DNA from: a virus
DNA: 22,092 nucleotides
IMG/VR virus record: IMGVR_UViG_3300025098_000321
Location: 1 to 22,092 of that record
Direction: 5' to 3' (one strand)
The notes beneath the pieces are model-generated. The model had not been told where the DNA came from, searched no databases, and saw only the letters and a list, made by a program, of their open reading frames with translations. Position numbers and translations under genes: made by a program. Below, one piece after another: positions 3,101-21,401 of this stretch (position 1 is its first letter; every line of letters starts with the position of its first letter).

Positions 3101-4609
3101 GTATTTCTCTACAACTCTAGAATTATTTAAGAAATCTCCTAAATAGTTTATGTTTCCGCCACCATCAATATGAGACCAACCATACTCAACAGCTATTTCT
3201 GCTCCAAACGAACCAAAAAGATCGGGCTTAATAAAAGGAGCAATATCTGTCATTCTCGTTCTATCATGTAATATTAAAGATAGCTTACCAGTTTTAAAAG
3301 ACATAAGACCTTGTGTAGGTGCTACGTCAATATCAAAGCTCTTTATTGTCATAAAAGGTCTTGTGTAGTCATGTATTGACGTAGATCTTCTAAAATTTTT
3401 ATTTTTATACGGTTGAACGTTTTCATTGTGTCCGACAAATATTTCATCAAAGTTATTTATTGTTTGAGGCATAGTAAATGCAGAAAGATTTGTATTTACT
3501 GCATTAGACTCTAACACTCCATCTCTAGTGTTTTGTGTTCGAACAAAAGAAGCCTCTAATGTTTTATAAACATCAGAAGTAAATCCTTCACTTATAGGTG
3601 TTCCATTAAAAAATTGTGTTATAGATGCAGTTTTAAATACTTTACCTGATGAATTTTTAACTTCGCCAGGTAATATAAACACTGCATTAAAATAAGGTTG
3701 ACATTTACTCAACTCTATCGTGCTAAGTGTGTTAAAAAAAGTTGCTAGTTCTAGACTGTTTCTAGTTCCTATTCTTAAATCAGCACTATCCATCATTATA
3801 AAAGCAAAACTAGTATCTGACTTTGTTGCTTTTACTCTTCCTTCAAAAGAATTACTTGGTATTGAATCATCTTTAGTGTATTTTGCATTAGCAAACTGTA
3901 CTTCAAGGCCTTTACCTCTATCTCCTCTAGGTGGTTTTGTGCCTATAATTTTGTTGTTTATTATACCGTCAGCACTAAAAATTACGCCAGAAGATATATC
4001 ATTTTGAGAAGCATCATTTGTTTTTCTTAATAAATTTCCCATTTTTTCATATAATGCATTTATACCGTCAGATTCTAAATTTTTTTCATTATTTTTATTT
4101 TTATAAATACTTTGTATAACTTCAGAGGATACTAGACCATAGGTTGAAGAATGCTTATATTTGTTACCTGTCTTAACCGGAAGTGCATTATCAAAAGGTA
4201 TTGCAAAAGGTGTATTTTCAAAAAGAACTTCATCTCTCCCAGTATTATTGCCACTTTGTATTATAACGTTTTGAGGTGCATGAACTATTTTAATGAAATC
4301 GCCTAAAGCATTTATAACATCATCACTATAGTTTTTATAAAGGTGCTCTAAGAGTTCTGAAATTGTCATGCATTCTGTCGTAATTGATTGCAAAACATCA
4401 GAAACTGCATTTAAAACTGTTTGTTTTGTTTCACTGTTTTCATTTAAAAGTTTTTTTATGTTTTCTTCTTTTTTAGTAGTAGTAGTAGATCTACCTAGAA
4501 GTGTTGTTAAAACATCCTCATCAGACATTATATTAACATAGTTGACTATATTAGACTCTCTAATACTTGATAAAACTCTTGAAGACTGTGTTCTGTCTGA
4601 AGTATTCAT
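164..4609 (-). CDS. Very large baseplate hub-like protein (gp27 / late-control-D type role)
   Basis: This 1481-aa protein is probably the central baseplate hub, the ring to which the tube and central spike attach. Residues about 415-530 form a beta-rich block with the motifs KLSLILHDRTRM, KPDLFGSFG and EIAVEYGWSH. Residues about 1075-1145 carry RVLPSQSTVTTWGCPF, DNAYAVTGIKHSMTPGKF and TTSITLSYGDVYGKYE. This 'TPGKFTTSITLSYGD' block is what I associate with hub proteins of myoviruses. A charged, Lys/Glu-rich linker follows at about 1150-1200, then a roughly 280-residue C-terminal region very rich in N, I, K and S with no recognised fold. The length far exceeds T4 gp27 (391 aa). No lysozyme or peptidase motif was seen. 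The gene starts 18 bp after the LysM-like gene, with a purine-rich AAAGAAAG stretch upstream of the ATG. The hub role is inferred from motif resemblance and position; it could instead be another large baseplate component. Confidence 0.72.
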   Translation of the reverse strand: MNTSDRTQSSRVLSSIRESNIVNYVNIMSDEDVLTTLLGRSTTTTKKEENIKKLLNENSETKQTVLNAVSDVLQSITTECMTISELLEHLYKNYSDDVINALGDFIKIVHAPQNVIIQSGNNTGRDEVLFENTPFAIPFDNALPVKTGNKYKHSSTYGLVSSEVIQSIYKNKNNEKNLESDGINALYEKMGNLLRKTNDASQNDISSGVIFSADGIINNKIIGTKPPRGDRGKGLEVQFANAKYTKDDSIPSNSFEGRVKATKSDTSFAFIMMDSADLRIGTRNSLELATFFNTLSTIELSKCQPYFNAVFILPGEVKNSSGKVFKTASITQFFNGTPISEGFTSDVYKTLEASFVRTQNTRDGVLESNAVNTNLSAFTMPQTINNFDEIFVGHNENVQPYKNKNFRRSTSIHDYTRPFMTIKSFDIDVAPTQGLMSFKTGKLSLILHDRTRMTDIAPFIKPDLFGSFGAEIAVEYGWSHIDGGGNINYLGDFLNNSRVVEKYIITNSSFSMDNNGQVNIDLSIAMRGPLDVKQIVIKSSPPVEASKDKAMTSLNSLNQSLASFENFSLERFISTFHDEIGAINTASITEASLTACNNLVKNKLIKGKNRKELENQIKNIKEVKKLKEFIISLSQNKKGKYYIRNPIVTEGLDGVLLDEITDALKVNLVDAIINIKSIVNVKAGNASKANTLVHEIIGGLDKIDPFYNKEWLNQWLKIVVGKKDVENTGTTISGIGKSKLGGTSYVSFGAFITGLIGTHMTCTGKFNEIQVVSYTANEFCGLMSNLNIASFLLPRLDLEIFLKDLFKAGTSMTLESIIKQVIERFISTRLQICYGLSEFYERDAAKNTIINKKRSGNTKILQENINKKLFEIYTNLAVDKSTDASKGQEITGYEDIKFIMPKIKFTFDTMTSKKSSFQKTICRISIFDQNDNPFGSVHTIMKKVYDEDGVVAVSAKLNKLRAEYKAGSKNKNQQKVTKERFYKKQNEILDRLEREGKLVKIDDSGLYKIVDTFQLDTIKNSIKNIMPSITYGTQNSAIIDASVTTVNESKLNTVYLTRSDRNNRKKQLETKVEFQKDLPLRVLPSQSTVTTWGCPFINFAQYIFLDFETGTTIDNAYAVTGIKHSMTPGKFTTSITLSYGDVYGKYENAAKTIARELDDRKKHDNKTKEEKKAENKTKPNAATEPDSSNSSKDNKVKITKKSVIDFTKKMIVPESVLNLDASIRPTLSFDLGGITYNINTNFLIYNRNIICVKTNDSDTTVNINFFHFLDFDKDFNKDIHVNLDISSFVKNSKVINNKFFNEQYENYISNKIINRRRSSFYNITRKSKLFNSKKIKESNEAIKWYKDDKALKDFFINIINTNKLSYSYKINYIDNKKSDLQKAASKCKASIKINKSNDFIELFNKEFKKAINKDFLKEFIYTDKFDISSIELLEKSIKINYSSKKRSINQTFEIFYTSLYALNYFTLERKMKENIEKNLVR

Positions 4610-4936: not shown

Positions 4937-7900
4937 TTACTTGTTTTTATTTTTTGCATTCATAAATCTTTCATATTTTTGTAAGGAAGCACTTCTTCCT
5001 CTTCCAATCTTATATTCACTTTTTTCATTTTGTGTTATTCCATCCTCACTATAATCAGAATAACCATCATGTGGGTCACCAAAAAACTGGTTGTTTATTT
5101 TACCTACATTGTAGACAGGAGCACGAAGCATACCATTGTGATCAAGCCCTGGTGGTATATCATGAATTGGAGAAAATGCAATGTTTACTTTGACAAGTAT
5201 AGGTGCTTTAGATCCTATTCTACTAGTTTCCCAAGTAGATTCATTATAACCAAGGTCTAAATTTGTAATAAATCCTGCTAATCCTCTACTCATTCCACTT
5301 TCATAAGCTCTAGTTATCGGATTGTTTGAAAACACATTGCCCTTTTGATCTTTGTGAACAGGCTTTAATATTCTATCTGCATCTTTAATTGTATTTTTAA
5401 TTGTTTTAGATAGAATTTCATCACCAGCAAAATATTTCAAGCTGTTCTTTAATATTTTATTTGAGTCAGCAAATAACTCATAGTTTCTACCTCCAAATTT
5501 TACTTTAACTATATAAATATTTCCATTAGTTGATAATATTTCAACTATAGGCGTTTCATGTGTAATATTAATAGCTCTTTTTCCAGACTTGTTTTTGTAT
5601 ATTCCAGGCAAAAGATAATCTGAATGTGCACTTTTCATTTTTTTAATTTTTGCTCTTATTGCAGCATTTTTTTTAGTTAAGCTTACCAAATCATTAGTAA
5701 GTTTAGTTACTTCCTCTTTCTTTTTTTCTAATAATTTTGTATTTTTTTCTTTATTTTTTCCTTTCTTTTCTAAAGCAGATACACCTTTATTATATGACTC
5801 GGTATTTTTCTTGTTTAGTTGCTTATCTAATTTATCAAGTACTGCTTTCTTTTCTGCAATTAACTTATTTGCATAAAAAGTCACAAAATTATCAGATCCA
5901 TTTGAAAAAGTTGCTTTATTACCATCTTTAGAAACATTTATCGCAGCTACTGGGTTAGTAACATTTACACCTAATCCTATTAACTTATTCACTTTTGCAT
6001 TAATTTCACTTAATATTTCATCAAGCTCAACCTCGGCTTTTTCGTAAATTTTTAAATTTTCATCAATCTTTCTCATCTCTTTTTTGATTGCAACTTGATC
6101 TTGCATTAAATTATGAAGATCAGAAGCAGCTTCTGTTTGACGCACAGAAGTATCGGCTTCTTGATCCCTTGATGCACTATGCGCTTTATTAAAACTTTCT
6201 AAGTTGTCTGAAAGGTGGAATTCTTTATCTAACCCTTCACGATCACCTAAACCATGTAATCTCGATAGATTAACTCTACTATAGTTACTTTTAATTAAGT
6301 CTCCTACTCTAAGTCTAATTAAAGGTGAAGCTGTTGGAACTTGTGTAAAAGGATATTTAAACTGGCCGGGAAGTATATTGCCTTCTTTATCTTTTGTTTG
6401 AACTGAAAATGCATCAGACCATTGTGGGTAACACATTGCTACGACTTTATTTATTTGATACCACATTAAGTCGTGATCTGTTTCTGATGTAGCTGCTAAA
6501 ATAAATGATAAATTTATATTTCTAGTTGTTTTAACATAAGATCTTACTTCATCAATTCTACCAAATCCAGAAGCAGAATTATAGTCTGGTGTAAAAGAGT
6601 CACTTATATTCTCTATAAAAGCATGAAACGATATTATCTCGTTTGTTCGTAGATCATGAAAGTAAAAAGGCATATATTCAGACTCTAGTTGATGCTCTAT
6701 TTCTCTTACTAGAGAAGAAGGTAATCTTCTTTCTTCACTTGTGTAAAAATTTTGAAATAAACTATTATCTAGACTAATTGAATTTTTATTGTTTAATGCT
6801 AATGATTTGTAAAAAGTGTGATTTAAGTTTAATCCTTGTGGAAGAGCTCTTATTCTAGTAGGTAAACTTGGCTTCTGCCCTAATGACTTGTTACTTCCAG
6901 AGTCACTTGCTTTCCATAGATATTCTTTACCACTAACAATTGTATTGTATACACTATCATCTGCATGAGATCTATTTCCACTGACTCTTGTTAAAGGTGT
7001 TTCTGGACTATTTGTGTCCATATAAGTCAGTCTATCGTAATAGTAATCTAAAAGTTTTAAACCTACTTGAACTCTTTCAATATAAAATCTAAAATAATAG
7101 TAGTTTAAGTCTGTAAACCAATCTAAAACTAAGTTTTTATCTTTAGCATTATAAAGATTTGAGTTCCAGTGTTTTTCTTGATAAAACTTTCTTAAGAGTA
7201 GCTTGACTCTATTAATAACTGTTGTGTTAGTAAAAGCAGATGCTGTTGCTTCTATCGTAGCAGAAAGTGCTGAGTCGATCAGTAAGTGTGCTTCTCTTGG
7301 TATACTAATAACAGAAAAATCAAAACCCGGATTAATCATGTCAGGTATTACCTTAAAAAAGTCTATAGAATTTTTACTATCAGTTTTTAAATCTATAAAT
7401 TTATTAATATCAAAAACCATGTCAGGTGAGAGCCAAGAGGCAAATCCAAAAAAGTAAGCAGCAAGTCTTTCATCTATTGTTGAGTTTTCATGTGGATAAT
7501 TTAAAACATTAAAAACATACTTTGTAAAAATATCAAAATCGTCAAAGTCATATTTGCCTAGTCTAAGATTGTATTTTTCATAAGTTTCGTTTCTATCCGA
7601 CGAAGTCAGTTGATTTAATGCTACAATAGCTTCTAATGTTGCAATTCTTACAACAGATTCTGCGATATAAGTAAACAAAAGACCTATTACTTCGCCAGCA
7701 TCATCTGTAAACTCATCGCCTCTAAGTCTCATTCCTGTGAGCATTTCAAACTCATCAGCAAAAACTTTAGGCATTCTATCTTCTTTTTCAGTTATAGAAT
7801 TAAAAGGCTTGAAAGATTTCTGTGTATTGTCAAGTGTAGGATCTGTAAAGCCAAAAGAAGGGTCATTGTTGCTCTTGCCTAAAATGTAAATTTCATCTTC

Positions 7901-8125
7901 TCGAGCAAGTGGACTATTAGGCTCTAAACCAAAACCAGTTCGATTTCTTCTGAGACTAGTTTGATTTATATTATCACTATTACCTACTACGTTCTGACTT
8001 TTGTTTACTTCAATTAAATAATCGTTTTCTGGTTTATCTTTGTTGTTTAAATTTTTTCTTTCAATACTACCGTTTTCAATTTTTATTATATTTCCAGAAG
8101 GGTCCAGAATGTATTTCGTTGACAT
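4937..8125 (-). CDS. Large baseplate / hub-associated structural protein with central coiled coil
   Basis: This 1062-aa protein is a probable baseplate component. Residues 1-150 are polar and linker-like. Residues about 150-480 are mostly helical. A characteristic beta-rich block at about 485-610 contains YMPFYFHDLRTNEIISFHAF, GRIDEVRSYVKTTRNINLSF, NKVVAMCYPQWSDAF and FTQVPTASPLIRLRVGDL. A long Lys/Glu-rich heptad-like coiled coil spans about 660-830. A C-terminal beta domain at about 950-1005 contains ITNLDLGYNESTWE and IAFSPIHDIPPGLDHNG. I recognise the central and C-terminal motifs as typical of uncharacterised virion structural proteins encoded beside the hub in large myoviruses; the C-terminal block is compatible with a tube-initiator-like fold, which is inference. 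It lies between the 85-aa gene (2-bp gap) and the LysM-like gene (9-bp gap). An AAGGA SD stands 9 bp before the ATG. Confidence 0.65.
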   Translation of the reverse strand: MSTKYILDPSGNIIKIENGSIERKNLNNKDKPENDYLIEVNKSQNVVGNSDNINQTSLRRNRTGFGLEPNSPLAREDEIYILGKSNNDPSFGFTDPTLDNTQKSFKPFNSITEKEDRMPKVFADEFEMLTGMRLRGDEFTDDAGEVIGLLFTYIAESVVRIATLEAIVALNQLTSSDRNETYEKYNLRLGKYDFDDFDIFTKYVFNVLNYPHENSTIDERLAAYFFGFASWLSPDMVFDINKFIDLKTDSKNSIDFFKVIPDMINPGFDFSVISIPREAHLLIDSALSATIEATASAFTNTTVINRVKLLLRKFYQEKHWNSNLYNAKDKNLVLDWFTDLNYYYFRFYIERVQVGLKLLDYYYDRLTYMDTNSPETPLTRVSGNRSHADDSVYNTIVSGKEYLWKASDSGSNKSLGQKPSLPTRIRALPQGLNLNHTFYKSLALNNKNSISLDNSLFQNFYTSEERRLPSSLVREIEHQLESEYMPFYFHDLRTNEIISFHAFIENISDSFTPDYNSASGFGRIDEVRSYVKTTRNINLSFILAATSETDHDLMWYQINKVVAMCYPQWSDAFSVQTKDKEGNILPGQFKYPFTQVPTASPLIRLRVGDLIKSNYSRVNLSRLHGLGDREGLDKEFHLSDNLESFNKAHSASRDQEADTSVRQTEAASDLHNLMQDQVAIKKEMRKIDENLKIYEKAEVELDEILSEINAKVNKLIGLGVNVTNPVAAINVSKDGNKATFSNGSDNFVTFYANKLIAEKKAVLDKLDKQLNKKNTESYNKGVSALEKKGKNKEKNTKLLEKKKEEVTKLTNDLVSLTKKNAAIRAKIKKMKSAHSDYLLPGIYKNKSGKRAINITHETPIVEILSTNGNIYIVKVKFGGRNYELFADSNKILKNSLKYFAGDEILSKTIKNTIKDADRILKPVHKDQKGNVFSNNPITRAYESGMSRGLAGFITNLDLGYNESTWETSRIGSKAPILVKVNIAFSPIHDIPPGLDHNGMLRAPVYNVGKINNQFFGDPHDGYSDYSEDGITQNEKSEYKIGRGRSASLQKYERFMNAKNKNK

Positions 8126-8399: not shown

Positions 8400-11300
8400 T
8401 TATGGGCTACTGTAGCTTTGTGTTTGTCCATTGTTAAATGCACCGTCGTCACCGCCAGCAGACTTAGTTGCGCTGCCTGATAATGATTTGCCTAACATCG
8501 TCCAGTCTGCTCTTGTCATTTTTCCTGCAAGATTTCTTTGAATCATGACTTTAGCAATTAAATCAGTAATTTCTTCACTAATGTTCATAAATCCTTCTAC
8601 TTCTATTGGTGTATCTTTTGTTTTTTGCATCTCTTCTTTTAATTTGCTTGATATCTTCGTAAAGTCGTCTTTTGTCATTCTCTTTGTATTTGTTTTAGGA
8701 ATTGACGATCTATTCATAATCATCTCAGTAATGTCAGCTTTTGCTGTGCTTGTATTTTGTGTGACGCCTAGATTTAAATCTTCGTCAGATATAGAAGGAG
8801 AGCTTATACCATAAATCATATTTTTTACAATGTCAAAGTTAGAATTCATAATAGGCATATTACTCATAATTCTATTAAACATGTCTGTAACAAAGTCGTT
8901 TGTTTTAATTACATTTTTTCCTGGATTTGTTGCATCTACTTGTGTAATCTCTTGGGGAACTGATGTTTTTGTTTCTTTGTTAAAAGAAACAGCTGGTGCA
9001 TCAAGTGGGGATACATATCTAAAATGCTTTATAAATTTTGTGCCTGCTTGACCAAATCCTTTTCCGTATTTTTGACTATCACCTAAACCTATAATAGAAT
9101 TAATACTCCAATTAGGTATCCACGGAGAAGTCTTTGATTTCTTTCCTTTATATCCGTGAAAATCTTTAAAGTCATATGATTTGTCTGTTTTTATTGAGTT
9201 TAAGTTTTCTGTTTTATAAGCTTCTTTAAACTCGTCTAAACTACCAAGGTAAGAAGCTATGACTTTATTGCCTGAATAATTGTTTATTAGTCTACTCATT
9301 GTAGAACTAGATCCAAAATTCCAGTGTTTTTTTACTCCAGCATCTTCTTGTTTTTTTGCAATCATTGCAAAAACTTTAGAAAATATTTTAATGTTTTCTT
9401 CCATGCTTTGTGAAGATTCAATTAATTTTCCTTCAACGAGATCTTGTTTGGATCCTGTTGATTTTAAAACATTAGCTGCTCCTGAAAGTATTTCTTTTTT
9501 TCCTTTGTCTGTTTTACCTTCTTCTTCAAACTTTTCTCTTAATGCTGATACTTGACTTTGTAAAGATTTCTTTTTTGTAGGATCTTTGACATCTGAAATT
9601 TTGCTTTCTAAAGATACAACTAAGTCTGCTATACTTTGCGTTGATATATCCTTTCCTCTAGACACCTGTCTTACCACGTCTGTAGCTGCGCTAGCGCCTA
9701 ATCCTTTAGAACCTTGCGGACTTTTTATCGCGTTAATTTGAGCTTGGCTTATCATAGACGATGTAGATTGTTCAAATACTTTTTTGCCTAGTATTTCATT
9801 AACACCTGTTTTTAATGTATCAACAAAAAAGTTAAATACTAAACTAATTGCGTCTGTAATACCTGTCAGAAACCAGCTAAAAATAGTGACGCCTTTATTT
9901 GTTTTCTTCATGTTTTCAAAAAAACCAAGAAAAGCCTTTCGGATTGAATCAGCTATTTTACCAAATTCTCCTGGTTCAAAGTGCAAAAAGTCTTCAATCA
10001 TATTTTTCTTTTTCTTGCCACTATTTTTTGCCTGATCAGCATCAAACTTAGAAGTCTGTGTATTAATTACTTTTAAAAGTGCAGTAAAACCTATAGCAGC
10101 ACCTCTAATTACAGCACCTGCAATTCTACCGCTTAACTTGATTAATTTAGCAAGATTACCAGTGTTTTTATCAACAGTTTCAGTTAAGCCATTAGCTAGT
10201 ACTATATCACTTTTAGCAGTTTTAACTTTTTGAATCTGGTTTGTTTTTTGAGTTTTTATTTTTTGATTAGTCTTGTATTTAACATTTATTTTTTCACCAA
10301 TTGTAACCATCATTTTATCATACATTTTAATTAATGATGTTTGTTTTGGACCTAAACTTTGTTTATATTGATTGAGCTTCCTTATTAAGTCTAAGGGATT
10401 TTTAATTTTTTTCATTTCTTCTAAGTCAACGATACCTGCTAGATGTGTCTCATAGCTTTTGACGCTATCTACTATCATTTTATTAAAGTCTGCTTTTTGT
10501 TTTTTTGTTCCTAACTCTCCTCCTTTTTTCATAGCCATTCCAATGTTTACTTCAAGATTTGAAAGAATAACATCACTCCTTGTTGCACCAAACATTTGTG
10601 CTGTAAAATCTGCAATTGACTTTACAGTGTTAATCAAGCCTCCTTTAAAAGCATCACTCTTTAAAATACTACTCATTATTTCAATAACAAGTTTTATAGG
10701 TTTGATTAATCCTATCCATGTATTAGGATCAAGATTAAGTGCATACTCGTATATTCCTTGATAACCGCTACTCAAAGAAGTTAATGTGCCTCTAAGATCT
10801 TTCGAAAGAGCTACATTACTTGAAAGACCTTTAAAGAAAGCCTGAAATGGTGAATCAAAAGTCATTATTTTTTGAACTTCTTTTATAGCAGAGTTTAGTT
10901 TCTTTATTGATTTCATCTGCTTTGAAGTAGGCTTTTCTGATTCCATTCTCTTAACAGCTTCTTCATGTGTTAGGCCTAAGTCTCTATAGTTCATTAAAGC
11001 ACTTAAACTTTCTGAAGACATTCCGGTATGCTGTGACATCAAGTCTTTTTCAAATCGATTAAGATCTTGAAAGGATTGCCCTGTTTCTAGCATAGAAGTT
11101 CTAAACATATTGATTATTTCTTCAGGGTTTTTTGCTTGAATCATATCCATAGCATCTAAATTCATGCCAAAAGTTTGAGATAACATTGCAACAGAATTTG
11201 CTGCGTCTTGAAAAGTACTAAACTTTTTAAACACTGCAGATGCATCTTCAAGTTTTACTTTCATTTGAGTAAGTCTTGCTGTTGTTCTTGATATTTCTTC

Positions 11301-12551
11301 GTCTGATAAGTGACCAAACTGCGTTATGTCTTTTCTAAGAATCATAAAGTTCTTAGAGAGCCTTTTCCTATCAACACCAAATTCTTTTGCTGTGCTTTCT
11401 AATGTTACACCTAACTCTGCCATTCTTACATTAATATGCTTCATGTTTGTAGCAGCATCTAGTGCCATATATGAAACATCTTCCGATGAAAAACCAAAAC
11501 CTTTTACCATTTTAGCAAAGTTTTTAAGTCTGTCTGGATCTTTCATGAGGCTTTTACCAAAAATTTCAGAAAAATGTCCCATAGCATCAATGTTTTCACC
11601 CATAAAGCCTATCATGTTAGCAATCCCGCTTGCTCCAAATCCAAATAGTTTAACTAGTTCTGCTGAAGGGTTTTGAAATGATAAAAGCATACCCTTACCT
11701 CTTGAAGTCATTGCTTGAATTCCTTTACCTATATTTGAATTCATGTCAAATTTTTCTTTTAAACCTTCAGCAGCACTTTGAATAACTTCAACTAAATCAC
11801 GTCTTATTGTATTTCCTATGTTAACTGCATGCTTCATTATAGTAAAAGGAACAGTTGCAGCAAACTTAACAAACTTTGCAGCTGCGCCGACCAAAGAAAA
11901 AACAAAGCCACCTATACCTTTTACTAAAGCAGAACCCACAGCAAGTGTAGATGAAATTGCCTTCCCAAATCCTGAAAGTAATTTGGATATTTTACTGGCA
12001 ATCTCTTTTACATTTTCAGTAAGCACAGTTAGTTCTTTATTGATATTAACAGAATTTTCATGAAATGAATTAAAAACTTTCTTGCCTTTAGAAAGATGTT
12101 TATTAATTGCAGTTGTACTGTTTTTCATATTATTATTAATAGCTGACGTTGCATTGCTCATTGAAGATACTGTTTCGCTTATTTTTTCTAAAGACTTTTG
12201 TTGTCTATTTGAAGCTTCTTCGTATGAATTTGCAACTTTTTCTAAACCTTTGCTTACTTTTTCTATGTTTTTTTCGCTAAATTTTTCAAGTGCTGATTCT
12301 GAAGCTTCATTTAAAGCTTCCTCCATTTGAGTTGAACTTTCTGACATTCCTGACATGAAGTTTTGCATTTGAGAAAAGCTTTCAGTCATTGAGTTAACAA
12401 AGTCTGATTGTGTTTTTGTAAGTTGTTTTATCTTCTCAAGTCTATTTGAAACTTGTTCTAAAACTCCATTGAGCTCTCTAGCAATGCTAAGTTGATCTGT
12501 ACTTTGTTGTTCTTGTTCTGGGCTATTTGTTGGCGTGTTAGAATTAGACAT
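8400..12551 (-). CDS. Tape measure protein, second paralog
   Basis: This 1383-aa protein is a tail-length determinant that would occupy the tube lumen and be ejected ahead of DNA. Residues 1-190 are heptad-like and rich in S, E, K and N. Residues about 199-239 are hydrophobic, and a second hydrophobic stretch lies near 807-825 (GRIAGAVIRGAAIGF). Residues about 246-580 are a conserved helical core with IGNTIRRDLVEVIQS, MGHFSEIFG, FKKFSTFQDAA and FDSPFQAFFKGLSSN. The upstream gene carries the same core with a constant 12-residue offset, so the two are tandem paralogs. The C-terminal part (after about 850) is divergent, polar and partly Gly/Ser-rich at the end. No lysozyme or peptidase motif was seen. 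It is separated from the first paralog by only 9 bp, with AAAGG upstream of the ATG. Tape measure identity rests on length, helical composition, hydrophobic segments and position. Confidence 0.8.
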   Translation of the reverse strand: MSNSNTPTNSPEQEQQSTDQLSIARELNGVLEQVSNRLEKIKQLTKTQSDFVNSMTESFSQMQNFMSGMSESSTQMEEALNEASESALEKFSEKNIEKVSKGLEKVANSYEEASNRQQKSLEKISETVSSMSNATSAINNNMKNSTTAINKHLSKGKKVFNSFHENSVNINKELTVLTENVKEIASKISKLLSGFGKAISSTLAVGSALVKGIGGFVFSLVGAAAKFVKFAATVPFTIMKHAVNIGNTIRRDLVEVIQSAAEGLKEKFDMNSNIGKGIQAMTSRGKGMLLSFQNPSAELVKLFGFGASGIANMIGFMGENIDAMGHFSEIFGKSLMKDPDRLKNFAKMVKGFGFSSEDVSYMALDAATNMKHINVRMAELGVTLESTAKEFGVDRKRLSKNFMILRKDITQFGHLSDEEISRTTARLTQMKVKLEDASAVFKKFSTFQDAANSVAMLSQTFGMNLDAMDMIQAKNPEEIINMFRTSMLETGQSFQDLNRFEKDLMSQHTGMSSESLSALMNYRDLGLTHEEAVKRMESEKPTSKQMKSIKKLNSAIKEVQKIMTFDSPFQAFFKGLSSNVALSKDLRGTLTSLSSGYQGIYEYALNLDPNTWIGLIKPIKLVIEIMSSILKSDAFKGGLINTVKSIADFTAQMFGATRSDVILSNLEVNIGMAMKKGGELGTKKQKADFNKMIVDSVKSYETHLAGIVDLEEMKKIKNPLDLIRKLNQYKQSLGPKQTSLIKMYDKMMVTIGEKINVKYKTNQKIKTQKTNQIQKVKTAKSDIVLANGLTETVDKNTGNLAKLIKLSGRIAGAVIRGAAIGFTALLKVINTQTSKFDADQAKNSGKKKKNMIEDFLHFEPGEFGKIADSIRKAFLGFFENMKKTNKGVTIFSWFLTGITDAISLVFNFFVDTLKTGVNEILGKKVFEQSTSSMISQAQINAIKSPQGSKGLGASAATDVVRQVSRGKDISTQSIADLVVSLESKISDVKDPTKKKSLQSQVSALREKFEEEGKTDKGKKEILSGAANVLKSTGSKQDLVEGKLIESSQSMEENIKIFSKVFAMIAKKQEDAGVKKHWNFGSSSTMSRLINNYSGNKVIASYLGSLDEFKEAYKTENLNSIKTDKSYDFKDFHGYKGKKSKTSPWIPNWSINSIIGLGDSQKYGKGFGQAGTKFIKHFRYVSPLDAPAVSFNKETKTSVPQEITQVDATNPGKNVIKTNDFVTDMFNRIMSNMPIMNSNFDIVKNMIYGISSPSISDEDLNLGVTQNTSTAKADITEMIMNRSSIPKTNTKRMTKDDFTKISSKLKEEMQKTKDTPIEVEGFMNISEEITDLIAKVMIQRNLAGKMTRADWTMLGKSLSGSATKSAGGDDGAFNNGQTQSYSSP

Positions 12552-12560
12552 TTTTTACCT

Positions 12561-15500
12561 TTAAGTAGCAACATTTACTTTTACGTTATTTGTAACTATT
12601 TTCCTAGAAGAATTTAGTTGCACTATTTCAATACATAAATTTACTAAATTTAAAACTTCTTCATCAGAAACTTCTTTTGTAATTTGATTATTATCAATTA
12701 AAGAATCTTTTAATGATTTATTAGCAATTAAACCTTTATAATAATTTTCAACTTCCAAGATTTTCTTGTTATTGTTTTCTTTTACAATACAAAAAAGCTC
12801 TTCAGTAAACTGATTATGTGTGTCAAAAATTTCAATATACAACTTGTTTAAAAATCCTCCTTTTTTTGATGCATAAATTGCATCATGATCATCAAGGTGA
12901 TATTCTGAATTTCCTATTGTAATAACAGCACCTTTCCCTTTTAAATGATAATCTTTAGTCTTAAAGCGAGACATATGATTTTTTTCTAAAGATATATTTT
13001 TGTTTATTTTATCTCTATATTTATTCATTTCATCAATAGGATCATCACCAAACAAATTAAAGCCTCCGGTATAGCTACTTACAGAATTCATAGGAGTTTC
13101 AGATATTAAATCAGAAAGCTTTTTCTTCATTGCATTTTCTTGTCTTTTATTGTTAATATAACTGCTATTAATTAAATTTAAAGTTTTTGCTTCTGTTTTT
13201 TTATTGTCTAAAAGTCTATGAATTGCTGAAGGCTGATTTGCATTTAATTCTGTTGCGTTACTTAATATATGTAAGCCAGCAGTAATTCTTTCTTCAATTT
13301 CTAGGTCTTCAAAACCTAATAAGAAATCACCTACTTTTAAGTTACCGTGTCCAATATGTTCAGCATTTTTTTCTAAATATTTTATTTGACTAATGACTTT
13401 TGAATCACTCAAGTATTTATATGCATATGAATCTTTATGCAAGTTGTCTTTAAAGCCTTGGATTGTACCGAATATTTTCGGTAAAGCACCCATCTTATAA
13501 TCATAGTCTGCATATTTATTATCTTTAGATTCATCTGTTATGAAACTTCCTGTAATTGCGTCGATGCTTGTTTTCCCTTTTAGGAGATCAAGTCCTTTTG
13601 AAGCATGTGAATATTTTTCTGCTTTTACAAAATCTAGATTTGCAGCCATATATGCTTTTAATAATTTATTATCTGTATTATCGTATATTGATGATGACAT
13701 TTCACCAAAAAATCCAAGTAATCCTCCCGCAAAATCGCCTATTACATCTTTAAAATCAAGTAAAAAGCTTCCTGCGAATGACATAAATGTAGGAAGATTT
13801 AATACAAACTTTGCACTTTCTTTACCGAAATTGTCAGACAGTTCTCCAGTCTCTTTAGTTGATATCCCTAACAAATCTATTGCTCTTAGTTTTTTACCAG
13901 GCTTAATACCAAACTCTTTTCTAAGAGTCTTTGATGTTTCTAAGCCTAGCATATCAACGCCAGCGTCTAAGCTCCCAGAGAAAATCTGAAATGATGCAGC
14001 AATTCCATATCCTATTCCTCTCACGACAGACCCCATAATTCTCCCGCCAATATCTTTAATACTGTTAAAAGTAGGTGTTCCTTCTGTAAGAAGATCCATT
14101 ATGTTTTCATATAAGTTGTTAATTCTTCCTTCAATGCTATGTCTATTTTGAGACTTTTTAATAGAATCTTTTAAGACTTTTTGCGTAAATACATCTAATT
14201 GACTTATTTGTTCTTCGAATTTAGTATCTACTACATTTAATATTCCTAATATTTCTTTTTGAACTGGACTATTGTCATCATATTGCCCACTTATATATTG
14301 CATTTTTCTTAAAATTTCTTCAGTTGTGACATCTTTGGCAACTCTAAACACACCTTTCTTGTATTCCTCTAATATACCCTGCCCTTTCATTTTACCTAAA
14401 AGCTGAGCATTAGCATTTCTTTTTGGATTTGTTAAATCTAAAGTGCTTGATATAGCTTCAAAAATTACTTTTTCTTTTTCTCTTACAGCTTTTATCTGAT
14501 CTTTATTTAATTTAAAAATAACAGATGATACTTGTTTTTCAAGTTTGTAATATTGTTGCGCAGTAGAGTTTTGTAAATCATTACCAATGTCACCTAAAAA
14601 GTCTCCTGCAGTTTTTGTTGCATGCTTTAAAACTTTTTTAAATGTATTACCTGTCAAAGTTCCACTGATTTTATTAAGAATTGTTGTGACTGGTACTAGT
14701 AAAGATTTTATTTGATTAATATCTAGACTAAAGCCTAAGTGATATATGTCTTCATATAAAGAGCTAAGACCAACAACCATATTTCTTAATTCTTTTTGGT
14801 TTGATGCATTACTCGTTAAACCTCTAAAAAATGCTTGAAATGGGCTCTCAAACATCATTGTCTTTTGAAGTAGCTTTATAGTAGAAGTTAAGCCTTTAAC
14901 CATTTTAGTTTGTTGTTCAGTTGGATCTTGTTCTTCCATTCTTTTTCTAGCTTCTTCATATTCTAAGCCTTGAGACATATAATTCATTAGGCTTTGCAAA
15001 CCTTTTTCGCTAACGCCTGTAATGTTAGACATTAAAGCTTTTTCGTGTCTATCTAGGTCTTTAAATGCGCGGCCTGTCTGAAACATTGAATCTCTAAACT
15101 GTTGCAACATTTCTCCAGGGTCTCTTGCAGTCAATAAATCAAAAGCGTCTATGTTCATTTCAAATGACTGAAATAACATTGCTGAAGTTTTAGAAGCTTC
15201 TTCTAGAGAAGTAAACTTTTTAAATACATTAACTGCATCGTCTGTTTGAATACCCATTTTTCTAAGTTTAACAGTTAAGTTTGCAACTTCGTTAGAAGTT
15301 AAATTTCCAAAGTCAACAATGTTTGTCCTTAATGTGTGGAACTCTTTTGTTAATGCTTTAAAGTCTAGACCATTACGATCAGCTGCATTTTTTATTGTTT
15401 CTGACGTTTCGTGCAAAGTGTCAATTGGGCTTTTTCCACTAATATATGATTCCATTGCATAATAAGCAAATTCTTTAGCACTTAGACCCATTGCTCTTTG

Positions 15501-16508
15501 CATTTCTATTAAATATTGCGCGCTTGAAAGATTACCCATAATAGATTGACCAAAGACTTCTGAATAATGTCCCATGTCTGCAACTGCTTTAAATGTTTCT
15601 TTTAAAAAAGAAGCAGCACCAGCTGCACCTGTCCCAAAGAGCCTTGATAGTCTTGACCTAGGAGACTGAAATGTTTTTAATAAACCTTTAGCCATTCCTG
15701 TCATCTTATCAGCACTTTTTCCTATATGCGAAGTTAAGTCAAATGCCTCCTTTGCTTCTTCGCCAGCAGATTGTATAACCTCAACTATATCCCGTCTTAT
15801 TGTGTTTCCTATTTGTGAAGCAAACTTTCCTATTGTAAAAGGCAAAGATAATGAAAACATAAAAAATTTAGTTGCTGCACCGATTAAAGATACAGCAGCT
15901 TTTAACAACCCTTTTAAAAAGCTGAATAAAAATCCAAAAAAGTCGCGTATTAAAGACCTACCAAAAGAAGAAAATGCATCTTTAATTTTCATCATTAGAT
16001 CAATTGCTTTACCAAGAATATAGACACCTATAGATGCAATTTTTAAAATTCTTGGATATTTTTCCATTTTGCTTACTGCACTTGTTAATTCTCTGCTTAT
16101 TACATCTGTCGAATTTTTTAGTGATACATTGATCGCGTTTGTTTTATCTTTTATTTTTTTAAATAACTTATTATTTTTTAAAGCATTTCTTAACGTTTTA
16201 CTAGATTTTGTTGAAGAATTTTTCATGCTAGAATTAATTGCATTAGTGCTGTCTTTAGTTTGATTTTCTATGTTTTGCACAAAACCATCAGCAACAGAGT
16301 TTGACATTTCATTAGATATTGCTTGAGCATTTGAAGCTGTATTACTCAATCTAGTATCTGAGCTTTTCATTTCTTGCATCATTTTTTGCATGAAGCTGTT
16401 TTGGCCATTTGTATTGCCTAGCATACTTTCAAAAGAATTAGTCATTCTGTCTAAAGCTTCTAATAAACTTCGTGATATATCTAGTTGTTGCTGAATTGTA
16501 CTTTCCAT
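12561..16508 (-). CDS. Tape measure protein, first paralog
   Basis: This 1315-aa protein is the other tape measure-like protein. Residues 1-150 are helical and polar with repeated Asn-rich segments. Hydrophobic segments lie at about 154-172 and 185-228, and another near 824-845 (GGRIMGSVVRGIGYGIAASF). The shared core at about 234-567 holds IGNTIRRDIVEVIQS, DMGHYSEVFG, FKKFTSLEEAS and FESPFQAFFRGLTSN. In one 32-residue block (427-458 here, 439-470 in the paralog) I count 16 identities. The C-terminal third shows little resemblance to the paralog. A strong GGAGG SD at 16523-16519 lies inside the end of the preceding 83-aa gene, whose stop is only 4 bp from this ATG, so translational coupling is likely. 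It lies directly downstream of the gp26-like/chaperone cluster, the canonical tape measure position. Which of the two paralogs is the length ruler cannot be decided from sequence. Confidence 0.82.
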   Translation of the reverse strand: MESTIQQQLDISRSLLEALDRMTNSFESMLGNTNGQNSFMQKMMQEMKSSDTRLSNTASNAQAISNEMSNSVADGFVQNIENQTKDSTNAINSSMKNSSTKSSKTLRNALKNNKLFKKIKDKTNAINVSLKNSTDVISRELTSAVSKMEKYPRILKIASIGVYILGKAIDLMMKIKDAFSSFGRSLIRDFFGFLFSFLKGLLKAAVSLIGAATKFFMFSLSLPFTIGKFASQIGNTIRRDIVEVIQSAGEEAKEAFDLTSHIGKSADKMTGMAKGLLKTFQSPRSRLSRLFGTGAAGAASFLKETFKAVADMGHYSEVFGQSIMGNLSSAQYLIEMQRAMGLSAKEFAYYAMESYISGKSPIDTLHETSETIKNAADRNGLDFKALTKEFHTLRTNIVDFGNLTSNEVANLTVKLRKMGIQTDDAVNVFKKFTSLEEASKTSAMLFQSFEMNIDAFDLLTARDPGEMLQQFRDSMFQTGRAFKDLDRHEKALMSNITGVSEKGLQSLMNYMSQGLEYEEARKRMEEQDPTEQQTKMVKGLTSTIKLLQKTMMFESPFQAFFRGLTSNASNQKELRNMVVGLSSLYEDIYHLGFSLDINQIKSLLVPVTTILNKISGTLTGNTFKKVLKHATKTAGDFLGDIGNDLQNSTAQQYYKLEKQVSSVIFKLNKDQIKAVREKEKVIFEAISSTLDLTNPKRNANAQLLGKMKGQGILEEYKKGVFRVAKDVTTEEILRKMQYISGQYDDNSPVQKEILGILNVVDTKFEEQISQLDVFTQKVLKDSIKKSQNRHSIEGRINNLYENIMDLLTEGTPTFNSIKDIGGRIMGSVVRGIGYGIAASFQIFSGSLDAGVDMLGLETSKTLRKEFGIKPGKKLRAIDLLGISTKETGELSDNFGKESAKFVLNLPTFMSFAGSFLLDFKDVIGDFAGGLLGFFGEMSSSIYDNTDNKLLKAYMAANLDFVKAEKYSHASKGLDLLKGKTSIDAITGSFITDESKDNKYADYDYKMGALPKIFGTIQGFKDNLHKDSYAYKYLSDSKVISQIKYLEKNAEHIGHGNLKVGDFLLGFEDLEIEERITAGLHILSNATELNANQPSAIHRLLDNKKTEAKTLNLINSSYINNKRQENAMKKKLSDLISETPMNSVSSYTGGFNLFGDDPIDEMNKYRDKINKNISLEKNHMSRFKTKDYHLKGKGAVITIGNSEYHLDDHDAIYASKKGGFLNKLYIEIFDTHNQFTEELFCIVKENNNKKILEVENYYKGLIANKSLKDSLIDNNQITKEVSDEEVLNLVNLCIEIVQLNSSRKIVTNNVKVNVAT

Positions 16509-16512
16509 TTAC

Positions 16513-16764
16513 TTAGAGCCTCCAAGTAATTCCAGACAAATTTTCAAACTTTCTTGTTATTTCTTTTTTTTGTATAATAGACTTATTGATTACATCTAAA
16601 CTAGCATTTTCGTCTAACTGAATCTTAAGTCTTTTTGAGACTTCTAATAGTTCTATTAAACAATCCATTTCTGCAGGTCTTCCTGAAAGCTCTATGTCTA
16701 CATCTTCACTTACTATGTACTTTGCAGCAATGTGATGTAATAACTTCTCTTTTTGTGTTATCAT
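16513..16764 (-). CDS. Small protein of unknown function preceding the tape measures
   Basis: This 83-aa soluble, helical protein starts MITQKEKLLHHIAAKYI and contains the segment DCLIELLEVSKRLKIQLDE. It has no membrane segment, metal-binding motif or recognised family. It is supported as a gene by an AAAAGGA SD about 7 bp before the ATG and by tight packing: its last codons contain the SD of the first tape measure gene and its stop is 4 bp from that start. Its place between the chaperone-like pair and the tape measure suggests an assembly factor or tape measure chaperone, inferred from position only. Confidence 0.75.
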   Translation of the reverse strand: MITQKEKLLHHIAAKYIVSEDVDIELSGRPAEMDCLIELLEVSKRLKIQLDENASLDVINKSIIQKKEITRKFENLSGITWRL

Positions 16765-16808: not shown

Positions 16809-16982
16809 TTAAAATGATTTACGAAATACTTTACTACCATTTGTTTGCCTTTTTGATTGCTGGTGTGCCTGATTTTGTTGTTTTGATTCTTCTAAATCTT
16901 TTTTAAATCTACCTATAAACCAAAATCTTTGCCAAACAGGACAGCTATAAGCATCTCGATATGTAAACCCTAAGTGATACAT
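16809..16982 (-). CDS. Overlooked 57-aa ORF; probable tail assembly chaperone extension
   Basis: Read from the ATG at 16982, this frame gives a 57-aa peptide containing GFTYRDAYSCPVWQRFWFIG, then a Lys/Gln-rich tail ending KVFRKSF and TAA. The 'Y-D-A-Y---PVWQR-WFI-R' pattern is, from memory, characteristic of small proteins encoded just after gp26-like genes in other myoviruses, so it is probably real although below usual length cut-offs. No SD precedes this ATG (the upstream bases are AT-only for over 15 nt), while nearly every neighbour has one. The same frame is open upstream through codons reading LTPNNKDLYLEQIYIL, back to a TAG at 17063-17061, and this open stretch overlaps the end of the gp26-like gene. 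It may therefore be expressed as a +1 frameshift extension of that gene rather than from its own start. Alternatives are a leaderless-like or coupled reinitiation start. Its role as a tape measure or hub assembly chaperone is inferred. Confidence 0.6.
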   Translation of the reverse strand: MYHLGFTYRDAYSCPVWQRFWFIGRFKKDLEESKQQNQAHQQSKRQTNGSKVFRKSF

Positions 16983-17016
16983 TAAAATATATATTTGTTC
17001 AAGATATAAATCTTTA

Positions 17017-17865
17017 TTATTCGGTGTCAGGCCAAAAAAACGAGGCTCCCATTGGAAGACCTACCTCACTTTGTTCGTGACAATGTGGACAATTCATCCA
17101 AGATTTCATGTCAATTCCTGGTTCATGTCTATCTAGAAATCGTCGAAGCGCTAGAGAGTCTCTAGCAGGTAAATTTTTGACAAAAAATGAAAGTTTATTG
17201 CGATCGGTTATACCACCTACAGAAACAATAGATCGAGAAAGTCTGTCTGTAATTGCAGACTCAACTTTCATTCCGCTCTTTTTCTTTCTTTCATTTGTTA
17301 TCATCATTTCTCTTTCATCATGACCTGTTAAAAACTTAACTCTTACGTTTTTCTTAGTAACAGGCAACTGAACTTCAAATAAATTATCACCCATAACAAC
17401 AGGATCGACTTCTAATCGCTTAATTGATAAGTCTGATAAATCAAAAGTTTGTTTGCTTTTTGTTCCACACTCAGGACAATCAACTTCAACATCATAATCT
17501 GCGCCATATCCTGTAATTCGAAGAGAAACAAGCAAAGCGTTTCTGTCGCCAGAAATAAGATCGTCAGGTTTAATTGACTTATTAACAATACAAGATTGTA
17601 ATAGTTTTGTTAAAACTGTCCCGCTTTTAATATAAGCACGAGATGTTAAAATATCTTCTTCTCTTGCAGTCATAGGTCTAATATCAATTGTTTCTTGCCC
17701 GTGTAACGAACCATCTTGTGGATAAATCACTCCTCTTGATGGAAGAGGTACACTTTCTTGTGGAATTTCAAATCCAAAGTCGTCTCTCATTACATTTGAA
17801 ACTTGAATAGGCCCTTCCCTGCTAATTTGTGTAGGGTTGATAGGCTTATCTAAAGAATTACTCAT
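17017..17865 (-). CDS. T4 gp26-like baseplate/tail assembly protein with zinc ribbon
   Basis: This 282-aa protein resembles the T4 gp26 family (T4_baseplate), which is required for hub or tape measure assembly and in T4 is not a major virion component. Seen in the sequence: an N-terminal segment with VPLPSRGVIYP, the block IDIRPMTAREEDILTSRAYI at about 60-79, and two Cys pairs, CPEC (C130, C133) and CPHC (C259, C262), which together can form one zinc ribbon. It ends FFWPDTE followed by two consecutive TAA codons. An excellent AAGGAGAT SD precedes the ATG at 17865, and the gene starts 11 bp after the sheath. The last codons contain a run of seven T on the coding strand where a +1 slip would bypass the stop and fuse the protein to the downstream 57-aa ORF. 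Its location immediately upstream of small ORFs and the tape measures mirrors tail assembly chaperone genes (lambda G/GT position). Confidence 0.8.
   Translation of the reverse strand: MSNSLDKPINPTQISREGPIQVSNVMRDDFGFEIPQESVPLPSRGVIYPQDGSLHGQETIDIRPMTAREEDILTSRAYIKSGTVLTKLLQSCIVNKSIKPDDLISGDRNALLVSLRITGYGADYDVEVDCPECGTKSKQTFDLSDLSIKRLEVDPVVMGDNLFEVQLPVTKKNVRVKFLTGHDEREMMITNERKKKSGMKVESAITDRLSRSIVSVGGITDRNKLSFFVKNLPARDSLALRRFLDRHEPGIDMKSWMNCPHCHEQSEVGLPMGASFFWPDTE
17034..17040 (-). other. Candidate programmed +1 frameshift site (T7 run)
   Basis: On the coding strand the gp26-like gene reads TCG TTT TTT TGG near its end (S275-F276-F277-W278). Two Phe-tRNAs on TTT TTT can slip one base forward and re-pair perfectly with TTT TTT. 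Translation then continues Gly-Leu-Thr-Pro in the +1 frame, skipping the TAATAA and joining the 57-aa ORF. The predicted fusion is 351 residues (277 + 17 + 57). A -1 slip is less favoured because the base before the Phe codons is G, and the -1 frame is not the one that leads into the downstream ORF. The site is hypothetical. No stem-loop stimulator was identified. Confidence 0.4.
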
Positions 17866-17876
17866 TAATTATCTCC

Positions 17877-20800
17877 TTAAATTTTAGGTAATAGTACTTC
17901 ATCTTGTCCGCTATTTGTCATCAAGCTTAAATCACTCAATACACTATCTAGTGTCAATTCTATTGTATCAGATTGATCAAATTGTAAAATAATTGAACCT
18001 CTTATAATGTAGTTTTGCATATCTAATATCGTTTTGTCATCCTTACTATTAGGAATATTTATTATATAATTTGTTATATATCCTGCTTTAAGAAAACTCG
18101 TCATTATAAATTCTAACTGTATTTCTAATCTTTGATACAGATTTTGAAAATTAGAATTTTGTGTAAATAAAAAGCCACCTTTGACAAAGCTCTCATTAAT
18201 AAAAATATCAAATTTAATTCTCTTTTTTATTTCTTGAATTGTTCGAACAATACTTTGCACTTGAAAGACTGATTTTCTTTCGCCATGCGCTGTTTTTTCA
18301 CTTAATAAGTTTATTGCGTCTTTATTTAAAGGTTTATATAACAAGTTTATAGAAGATTTTCTTAAGTATAACTTTGCATTATTTTCAAATTCTAAAGAAG
18401 ATTCTTTTAAATTTATTGAATCTATCAAACTAAAACTAGCACCTGCATAAAATAAAGGTAAATCTGTTTGTGTCAAGCTGCTTCTAGGTGTAATTGTTTG
18501 TGCAATTTTTCCTAAAACAAAAGCTTCAGCAGGTATTTGTTTCTGATATCTAAATGCACCTATAGAAATATTTGCATTTAGATCTCCAAAAACTGGAAAT
18601 AAGTATCTACTTGTAATGTTTAGACTATTCCAGTTACTTAAAACTCTAGTATACTGTTTATCTAAAACTTTCTTATAAGAATAGTAAACTGGGCTATCAT
18701 TAAAGTCTTGTCCTAAACTAAATCTTTCATCATTAGTTGCTATTCTTACACTATCTACAGTATAATCATTATTATTATCAGCTGATTCAAATTCATTTAA
18801 AACAAAAGTATTTTTGCCAGATATCCCTAATGATGTTTTAACTAAGTCTCCAGAATCTGAAATTGTGTTTAGATCATTGTTTTTAACAAGCTTGTGAAAC
18901 TGAATTAGATTGTTAGACGCTGCGCCTCCAGTATCTGCTATAAAAAAATGATTTCTGTCTTCTTCACACTTTTTTACTACTTTTTCAATTAAAGGTATTT
19001 CTTTTATTCCAGGTAATATTACTATATCACTTGCACAGTTTGATTCATCCATTGCAATATCAATTGCTTTATCATAAGCAGAGTATGTAGTTTTTTGCTC
19101 ACCTATATTTGCAGTGTATAACTCTCTTGCAATTGCATCGTTTCTTAAAAACTTTTTATCACTATCTCTAATATCAACGCCATCAAAGCCACCGTATGTA
19201 AAAAAGTCAAAAGATAATTTATTTCTAAATTGTTGTATCAGATTTCCTTCTTCATCCCATATTCCTCCTACGTCATTGTTTATGTCTATATAGTTATATG
19301 TAACACCATTAGCAAAAGGACGACCAGAATGCTTATAAATCATATTTCTTGCATTTTTGCCATCATCTAAAGAATTAAATGGACTATCTAGTTCACCGTC
19401 AGTTTTTGTGTTTTTATAAGCAATTTTTTCTAAATGAAAAAATGAGTTTAAATAATTGTTTTCATTATTAAGAACGTTCAAATGTGTATGATTGCTATCA
19501 GTAATTTCGCTTAAAAAATATTTTGTATAGTAATAATGAGGAGAAATCTGTCTTCTATTAACAAGTGCTCTATTGTCTCGTATTTGACTTTGTGTAAATT
19601 TTGGTAAAAATGACGATTTAAGAATACTATCTACTAAATGTTTTTTTACAGCTGCTTGAGTAAACACAATCCCCCAGTTATTTTCAATATCATCTGTATC
19701 TGTTACAAAGTCTGGGTAGTAATTTAATGCATGCATTGGCGGGAGATGATAAACTTTATTTGTATCAAATATAGTTTCTATTACATTATTATTACTGTAC
19801 CAGCTTGTAAAAGCTGACTTTTGTAATTTAATGTGTGGATATGACTCAAATCCTGATGGTAATAAAGCATTTTGATTACTTAAAGACATATACTCAATAT
19901 CATCAGCAATTTCAACTCTCAAGTACTTACTAATATTTTCATAGAGTCCTTTTTCAACAACTTTGTTTGATTTAAAGTCATAGTATTTATGTATAGTGCC
20001 TATCTTAAAGCCGATATAGTTATCACTTTTTGGACTCAAGTTTATATTTTTATAGTATTCTAGTTGTATAAATGTATTGTTTCGAGGCTCATATTCAAAA
20101 AAGTAAATATCAAATGTTGAATATTCGTTTTCAGTTGGTTCTCTATGTAAATCTAATTTTCCTCTGAATGTAGGGTTGATTTTAATTCTATACTTGTTTC
20201 CTGACTCACCATCTGATAATGCATGAAACCTAAAAAGCTTATGTACGTACTCGTGAATGTTTTTTCTATTATTAGATAAACCATGTCTATTAAAAGGTTG
20301 AGACGTAATCCATGGCGTTTTTGCTGTTGTAAATTCACTTTCAAAAGAATTATAATCAGGAAACGTTGGATTAGCGCCAAGAGTAGAATAAGGTTTTACA
20401 GTTAAAATATCAGTCTGGTAAAGTTTAGCAGGATATGGTTTTTCTATTCCATTCAAGGAATAAGATGTGTAAGTCAAGTGTCCTTTTTCTAAGAACTTGT
20501 CTGAAATGTAATTTTTAGATACATTATAATAACCTATAGGCTTTTGTATAACATTAGCAGAAGGTCTTGTGCCTAAAGAAAAAACATTGTTTTCTTTTTC
20601 ATCGTATTTTGGTTTAAAACCTAGTATCTTAATATATGGCTGGATATTTAAAATTTGTTTTGAATCTTGATCTGTATAACTAGAAGCTGCTGTGCTAGAA
20701 TGATCAGCAAATAAATCAGATCCTGGATTAGATATTAAATTAGGTAAATTACCACTTGCAAAAATTAAAACATCAGACAAATAATGCGAATTTAAAGTTA

Positions 20801-21401
20801 AGTCATTATCATTGCCTAGTTCATTTAAATAGTCAACTGTGTCTGGATCAGCATTAGCAGCATCAACACTTGCTGCTCGCGTGCTTGATTCAAGCATTTT
20901 TTTTAAAACAAAAGTAACGTTACCGGGCTTACTATCTGCATCAGTAACAGAGTGTATGTTACCACTTTTAGTTTGAGTTAACGATCCACTAGAAATATCT
21001 TCCGCAGCATTAAACCCGCTATGTAGCATTTTACCGTTACTACCTCTAGTGCCTGTTCCAATACCTAATACTCTAGTAAAAGAAGAGTAAACACCTCCGT
21101 TGTCTTGCCACATAGACAATGCATCGTAAGCCATACTATCTGCATAACATACATAATCATCATATAAATGTGCATGTTGATTTTGTCTATGAGTGCCTAG
21201 AATATTTTCTTTTGTATTATAAACAATGCTGTTAGCAACAGTATTACTAGAGAAAATCTTTTCAGGTACAAAAGCTTTACCTTTATAAGAGGTACCTATA
21301 ATGTTTGCTGCTGCTGTTATGAGACTTTGACCTACGTTTATAGTAGGATCTTGCTCTGTGTCGCCAATTTGAATATTTCTTATAAAACTATGTACTGACA
21401 T
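17877..21401 (-). CDS. Tail sheath protein, extra-long
   Basis: This 1174-aa protein is the contractile sheath subunit that surrounds the tube. The N-terminal sheath domain contains GTSYKGKAFVPEKIF (about 37-51) and a Tyr/Asp-rich stretch near 75-100. A Rossmann-like sheath segment at about 785-820 reads SDIVILPGIKEIP and DRNHFFIADTGG. The C-terminal sheath domain at about 1045-1155 contains IVRTIQEIKKRIKFDIFINE and the terminal beta strands IILQFDQSDTIELTLDSV, the region that makes the inter-subunit mesh. T4 gp18 is 659 aa, so this protein carries several hundred extra residues. Most lie between about 230 and 720, are Asn/Tyr/Asp-rich, and probably form an outward-facing domain. It follows the tube gene (the reverse of the usual sheath-then-tube order) after a spacer with a terminator. 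An AGGA SD lies 6 bp before the ATG at 21401. Confidence 0.82.
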   Translation of the reverse strand: MSVHSFIRNIQIGDTEQDPTINVGQSLITAAANIIGTSYKGKAFVPEKIFSSNTVANSIVYNTKENILGTHRQNQHAHLYDDYVCYADSMAYDALSMWQDNGGVYSSFTRVLGIGTGTRGSNGKMLHSGFNAAEDISSGSLTQTKSGNIHSVTDADSKPGNVTFVLKKMLESSTRAASVDAANADPDTVDYLNELGNDNDLTLNSHYLSDVLIFASGNLPNLISNPGSDLFADHSSTAASSYTDQDSKQILNIQPYIKILGFKPKYDEKENNVFSLGTRPSANVIQKPIGYYNVSKNYISDKFLEKGHLTYTSYSLNGIEKPYPAKLYQTDILTVKPYSTLGANPTFPDYNSFESEFTTAKTPWITSQPFNRHGLSNNRKNIHEYVHKLFRFHALSDGESGNKYRIKINPTFRGKLDLHREPTENEYSTFDIYFFEYEPRNNTFIQLEYYKNINLSPKSDNYIGFKIGTIHKYYDFKSNKVVEKGLYENISKYLRVEIADDIEYMSLSNQNALLPSGFESYPHIKLQKSAFTSWYSNNNVIETIFDTNKVYHLPPMHALNYYPDFVTDTDDIENNWGIVFTQAAVKKHLVDSILKSSFLPKFTQSQIRDNRALVNRRQISPHYYYTKYFLSEITDSNHTHLNVLNNENNYLNSFFHLEKIAYKNTKTDGELDSPFNSLDDGKNARNMIYKHSGRPFANGVTYNYIDINNDVGGIWDEEGNLIQQFRNKLSFDFFTYGGFDGVDIRDSDKKFLRNDAIARELYTANIGEQKTTYSAYDKAIDIAMDESNCASDIVILPGIKEIPLIEKVVKKCEEDRNHFFIADTGGAASNNLIQFHKLVKNNDLNTISDSGDLVKTSLGISGKNTFVLNEFESADNNNDYTVDSVRIATNDERFSLGQDFNDSPVYYSYKKVLDKQYTRVLSNWNSLNITSRYLFPVFGDLNANISIGAFRYQKQIPAEAFVLGKIAQTITPRSSLTQTDLPLFYAGASFSLIDSINLKESSLEFENNAKLYLRKSSINLLYKPLNKDAINLLSEKTAHGERKSVFQVQSIVRTIQEIKKRIKFDIFINESFVKGGFLFTQNSNFQNLYQRLEIQLEFIMTSFLKAGYITNYIINIPNSKDDKTILDMQNYIIRGSIILQFDQSDTIELTLDSVLSDLSLMTNSGQDEVLLPKI

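Follow-up and report, generated by a model that had tools for sequence, protein, structure and literature searches.

Tape measure proteins (TMPs) are known as products of single genes that act as homo-oligomers, with a disputed copy number of 3 or 6 (PMC11784142). T4 gp29, lambda gpH, T5 pb2 and the TP901-1 TMP are long, mainly helical proteins encoded between the tube or chaperone genes and the hub genes, and each of these phages uses one TMP as a homo-oligomer. The locus described here is alike in protein length, predicted helical character and gene position, but it carries two diverged tandem paralogs, TMP-A and TMP-B. In the open-access literature, we found no paralogous or duplicated TMP genes; only chaperone pairs and repeats within a gene were encountered.

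The tail operon and its two tape measure paralogs

The window, that is the whole stretch of 22,092 nucleotides analysed, is part of the genome of a contractile-tailed phage. Its main genes are minus-strand genes and follow one another as tail tube, sheath-like, gp26-like, small gene, TMP-A, TMP-B, small gene, 1062-aa gene, gp53-like and probable hub (Table 1). No convincing intrinsic terminator was detected between TMP-A and TMP-B, and an Rfam search of the window returned nothing.

Table 1. Tail genes and sub-gene features of the window
Feature	Coordinates	Strand	Basis or remark
Tail tube protein, 162 aa	21590..22078	-	PHROG 4542 tail tube, E=5e-29
Tail-sheath-like protein, 1174 aa, one of several sheath paralogs in these phages	17877..21401	-	Similar to sheath genes of Mel-JY01 and LR756508
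gp26-like protein, 282 aa (PF12322 T4_baseplate), in tail assembly chaperone position	17017..17865	-	Pfam E=1e-19; PHROG 150 E=5e-24
Candidate +1 programmed frameshift extension of gp26-like protein	16809..17037	-	Slip site TTT-TGG at 17037-17032, stop at 16809; near-invariant site
Small protein before TMP-A, 83 aa, single-copy	16513..16764	-	Orthologs at same place in all two-TMP loci
TMP-A, tape measure paralog, 1315 aa, first of tandem	12561..16508	-	37% identity to TMP-B; A clade 99/99 (46-row tree); strong SD-like ggagg before ATG
TMP-A conserved core, residues 223-555, 333 aa, between PFT and SPFQAF prolines	14844..15842	-	330-333 aa in 11/11 A sequences
TMP-A middle segment, 266 aa	14046..14843	-	134 aa in L004; 122-144 aa in single-TMP relatives
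TMP-B, tape measure paralog, 1383 aa, second of tandem	8400..12551	-	PHROG 167 tail length tape measure, E=8e-7; B clade 98/95; predicted all-helical core similar to phage tape measures (BFVD)
TMP-B conserved core, residues 235-567, 333 aa	10851..11849	-	332-333 aa in 8/8 complete B sequences; 57% nt identity to A core
TMP-B middle segment, 240 aa	10131..10850	-	132 aa in L004
Small protein after TMP-B, 85 aa	8128..8385	-	Orthologs in two-TMP loci
1062-aa protein, probable baseplate/tube-initiator protein (function from position)	4937..8125	-	Syntenic with 716-aa protein after immuto TMP; orthologs follow TMP(s) in every complete locus
Baseplate wedge-like (gp53-like) protein, 99 aa	4628..4927	-	PHROG 7145, E=0.004; homologs in immuto and Mel-JY01
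Probable baseplate hub protein, 1481 aa (function inferred)	164..4609	-	Position; conserved in related loci

The preliminary description had pointed to two adjacent reading frames of 1315 and 1383 aa with a shared core, and both frames were recovered. By BLASTP, 239 of 639 aligned residues are identical (37%, 379 bits, E=2e-114), compared to a best score of 28.9 bits among 500 shuffles of TMP-B. The constant offset of 12 residues previously claimed was exact at all four anchors: IGNTIRRD (233 in A and 245 in B), MGH.SE.FG (312 and 324), FKKF (429 and 441) and SPFQAFF (555 and 567). A second shared motif, GRI.G.V.RG, is present as announced, its positions being 822 in A and 808 in B instead of 824 and 807. 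Similarity between the two single sequences is lost after about residue 640. The profile-profile alignment of the two families carries it to about 917 in A and 920 in B (E=1e-144), in line with the proposal that homology continues beyond the core while the last thirds have diverged. Both cores are under purifying selection: comparison of the window with L162 gave pN/pS values of ~0.14 for A and ~0.10 for B, synonymous sites being near saturation. At the level of sequence, these comparisons confirm A and B as paralogs.

Assignment to the TMP family is supported by several lines of evidence. By synteny, the pair sits where Flavobacterium phage immuto has its one annotated TMP, after the tube and assembly chaperone genes and before the baseplate hub genes. 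The two proteins are long, and the predicted core of TMP-B is all helix (mean pLDDT 68, moderate confidence). TMP-B matched the tape-measure family PHROG 167, and relatives matched PHROGs 1272, 305 and 1535; TMP-A alone gave no significant match to a tape-measure family and is linked through its identity to B. A core profile iterated through intermediate relatives, on which the link to the immuto TMP rests, scored 161 bits with that protein and 148-151 bits with its homologs in Mel-JY01 and LR756508, compared to less than 2 bits for each of the other tested proteins of these three loci. Direct hhalign comparison of the A/B profile with the single immuto and Mel-JY01 TMPs was not significant. 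When the B core model was searched against BFVD, most of the named hits were tape measure or minor tail proteins, with a best E of 2e-6 and low TM-scores; no significant match was obtained against PDB structures. A sequence search of the PDB with the A/B profile returned only coiled-coil and helical-bundle chains, which were taken as composition matches.

Two other features of the operon were observed. At the end of the gp26-like gene, the +1 frame is open across the stop codon in all 33 loci checked, at a near-invariant (T/C)TT-TGG-CC site. This candidate frameshift occurs at the same place in L004, L162, L007, L168, L169, L014, L008 (immuto), L009 (Mel-JY01), L011 and others, and would add a conserved extension of ~50-100 aa (FFGLTP..LEQIF.LMYH.GF) for which a PHROG search gave no match. 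The arrangement is similar to that of the lambda G/GT tail assembly chaperones; the region is present once and was not duplicated alongside the TMP. Sheath-like genes, for their part, are multiple. Two stand in tandem before the tube gene in the wider family, and an additional diverged one follows the tube gene in phages with two TMPs as well as in their single-TMP sisters, while one is annotated in immuto. Multiple copies were seen in the L005, L007 and L175 records and in L025, L106 and L194; the sheath-like gene of the window is at 17877-21401.

Copy number and origin of the pair

Scanning IMG/VR with profiles of the gp26-like protein, the tube protein, A and B yielded about 200 loci, many of them on fragmentary contigs. 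Two TMP genes were visible in 13 contigs, which represent ten distinct lineages (L173 and L177 being near-identical) and show a constant gene order. Among contigs that span the whole interval between the gp26-like gene and the homolog of the 1062-aa gene, about 50 carry a single TMP. Searching whole records for the core gave the same picture, with exactly two cores in three two-TMP records (115-133 kb) and exactly one in six relatives (115-211 kb). Scanning genome contigs with TMP-B uncovered no relative, and INPHARED phages gave no tblastn match to A, B or the hub protein; it was the tube and gp26-like genes that led to the known relatives immuto, Mel-JY01 and LR756508. Mel-JY01 was considered as a further two-TMP phage and rejected, its 2255-aa gene being a homolog of the 1062-aa gene with an extension.

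In a 46-row tree, A and B are each monophyletic (99/99 and 98/95, respectively) and together form a clade (96/94) whose sister consists of sixteen single-TMP sequences. Clean A and B clades next to a single-TMP sister clade support one tandem duplication, which took place after the split from the single-TMP sisters and before the radiation of the ten lineages, both copies being retained. The duplication followed by divergence that was first suggested from the window is thus borne out, and the event can be placed both by the tree and by the search for relatives with one or two copies. Branch lengths in this tree indicate that A generally evolves faster than B. The A sequence of L174 (6239-9469) has a very long branch of 1.28, far above the other A sequences, and the B sequence of the same locus is less extreme (0.72).

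In the wider family, complete TMP reading frames of single-TMP loci (L022-L155) range from ~420 to 2600 aa. This spread suggests that tail length differs widely between related phages.

Coordinated lengths and a putative mixed ruler

To compare lengths, A and B were aligned separately, so that gaps in one could not force gaps in the other. The core between the two conserved prolines measures 330-333 aa in every complete copy, and the flanks vary in step. Total lengths of A and B are strongly correlated in the eight complete pairs (r=0.973, rho 0.98; P=5e-5 by exact permutation), and the correlation persists once phylogeny is taken into account by independent contrasts (r=0.976, P=4e-4). A and B measure, for instance, 1077 and 1111 aa in L174 and 1490 and 1564 aa in L007. 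The start codons used are predictions, and N-terminal lengths could be off by a few residues. No such covariation with A/B was detected for the sheath-like, 1062-aa, hub and gp26-like proteins (r from -0.71 to 0.46). The stretch between the N-terminus and the GRI motif measures anywhere from 688 to 917 aa depending on the genome, while the A and B values within any one genome are no more than 27 aa apart. B is longer than A in every pair, by 34-125 aa.

Three large matched changes were observed among the eight complete pairs. The N-terminal part of L007 is longer in both proteins (A 293 compared to ~221, B 332 compared to ~236, i.e. +72 and +96 relative to near relatives); the middle segment of L004 is shorter in both (134 compared to ~263 and 132 compared to ~242, -129 and -110); and so is the C-terminal part of L174 (290 compared to ~476 and 342 compared to ~532, -186 and -190). 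The middle segment of single-TMP relatives, 122-144 aa, is close to that of L004, whose short middle may therefore be a retained ancestral state or a reversion rather than a fresh deletion; A and B share the state either way. The longer middle inserts of A and B showed no detectable similarity to each other. The two paralogs are thus of matched length and change together, and the paired changes point to a ruler principle that applies to each of them.

Tandem paralogs can recombine, and the matched changes might have arisen as a side effect of exchange between the two copies, by recombination or gene conversion, without functional coupling. This explanation appears very improbable: no A/B recombination tract was seen, nucleotide identity of the cores in the window is just 57%, A and B fall into cleanly separate clades with no mixing, and their variable flanks are dissimilar within most genomes.

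Since lengths covary and the same segments changed in three lineages, we favour a hetero-oligomeric ruler. A and B are probably co-rulers in one tube, forming a hetero-oligomeric tape measure that sets one tail length. After a single tandem duplication had produced two TMPs, these would have specialised and would run side by side, in register, within the lumen of one tail tube, as expected from lengths that match segment by segment, so that A and B jointly set a single tail length; both the shared tube and the mixed ruler are inferred. Three TMP copies are known in siphophages and six have been proposed in some myophages (PMC11784142), which makes an alternating set of 3A+3B one plausible stoichiometry. 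We would give even chances to the more specific picture of two different, co-evolving TMPs in register in one tube (3A+3B, for example), with a pseudo-sixfold lumen and a tail length that changes only when both genes change.

Three options had been offered in the preliminary description. The hetero-oligomeric ruler is the one we retain, whereas alternative tail lengths are disfavoured because A and B are of nearly equal length in each genome. The third is a division of labour, with one paralog acting as ruler and the other as a hub-bound or ejected (membrane-pore) protein. The diverged C-terminal thirds and the faster evolution of A are consistent with it, as are weak hydrophobic stretches, which are present in both proteins, hydropathy giving no separation of A from B. 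Nevertheless, a protein that is not a ruler would not be expected to change length in step with the ruler and in the same segments, and we regard this option as unlikely.

Matched lengths would equally be expected if each protein assembled only with itself, whether the two homo-oligomers share a tail or occupy alternative tails of the same length. Tails or bundles made of A alone and of B alone, differing in ejected content or in the hub bound, would fit the data as well if each ruler has to meet the same sheath and head-tail requirements, and the diverged C-terminal third could provide different ejected functions. On the other hand, no feature that would sort A and B into separate tails was seen, the gp26-like gene, the small gene ahead of the pair and the hub set each being present once, and both copies are kept in all ten lineages, suggesting that both are needed. 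Two such rulers seem to us rather unlikely, though not negligible. An end-to-end ruler, with A and B in series and a sum of ~2700 aa setting a very long tail, can draw on the tandem arrangement only. For such a ruler a fixed sum suffices, and neither equal lengths nor matched segment changes are predicted; we consider it highly improbable.

If the mixed ruler is correct, the locus would show how a homo-oligomeric molecular ruler can evolve into a hetero-oligomeric one. A lineage that keeps two paralogs of matching length is also a natural experiment, in which the A:B ratio and packing would show directly the number of chains that fill the tube.

Comparison with single-TMP phages

The annotated relative immuto (MW353175) has the same gene order as the window, a TMP of 1006 aa from the same core family and the same candidate +1 frameshift site in its gp26-like gene. 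The differences are a single TMP in place of A and B, and a tail sheath that is annotated only once. Microcystis phage Mel-JY01 and the huge phage LR756508 likewise share the core family and the order. They differ by their single TMP and by the long gene after it, a homolog of the 1062-aa gene with a long N-terminal extension (L009 23355-30122 and L011 26128-30864, respectively). The uncultured single-TMP sisters (L014, L175, L179, L182-L192 and others) have the same order, including the sheath-like gene after the tube, and their TMPs are the closest sequences to A and B; they nevertheless carry one TMP, of 988-1254 aa where complete. Duplications of 11-aa and 44-aa repeats have been described within TMPs (PMC3271669). 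These are also cases of length evolution by duplication, but inside one gene, whereas here the whole gene has been duplicated.
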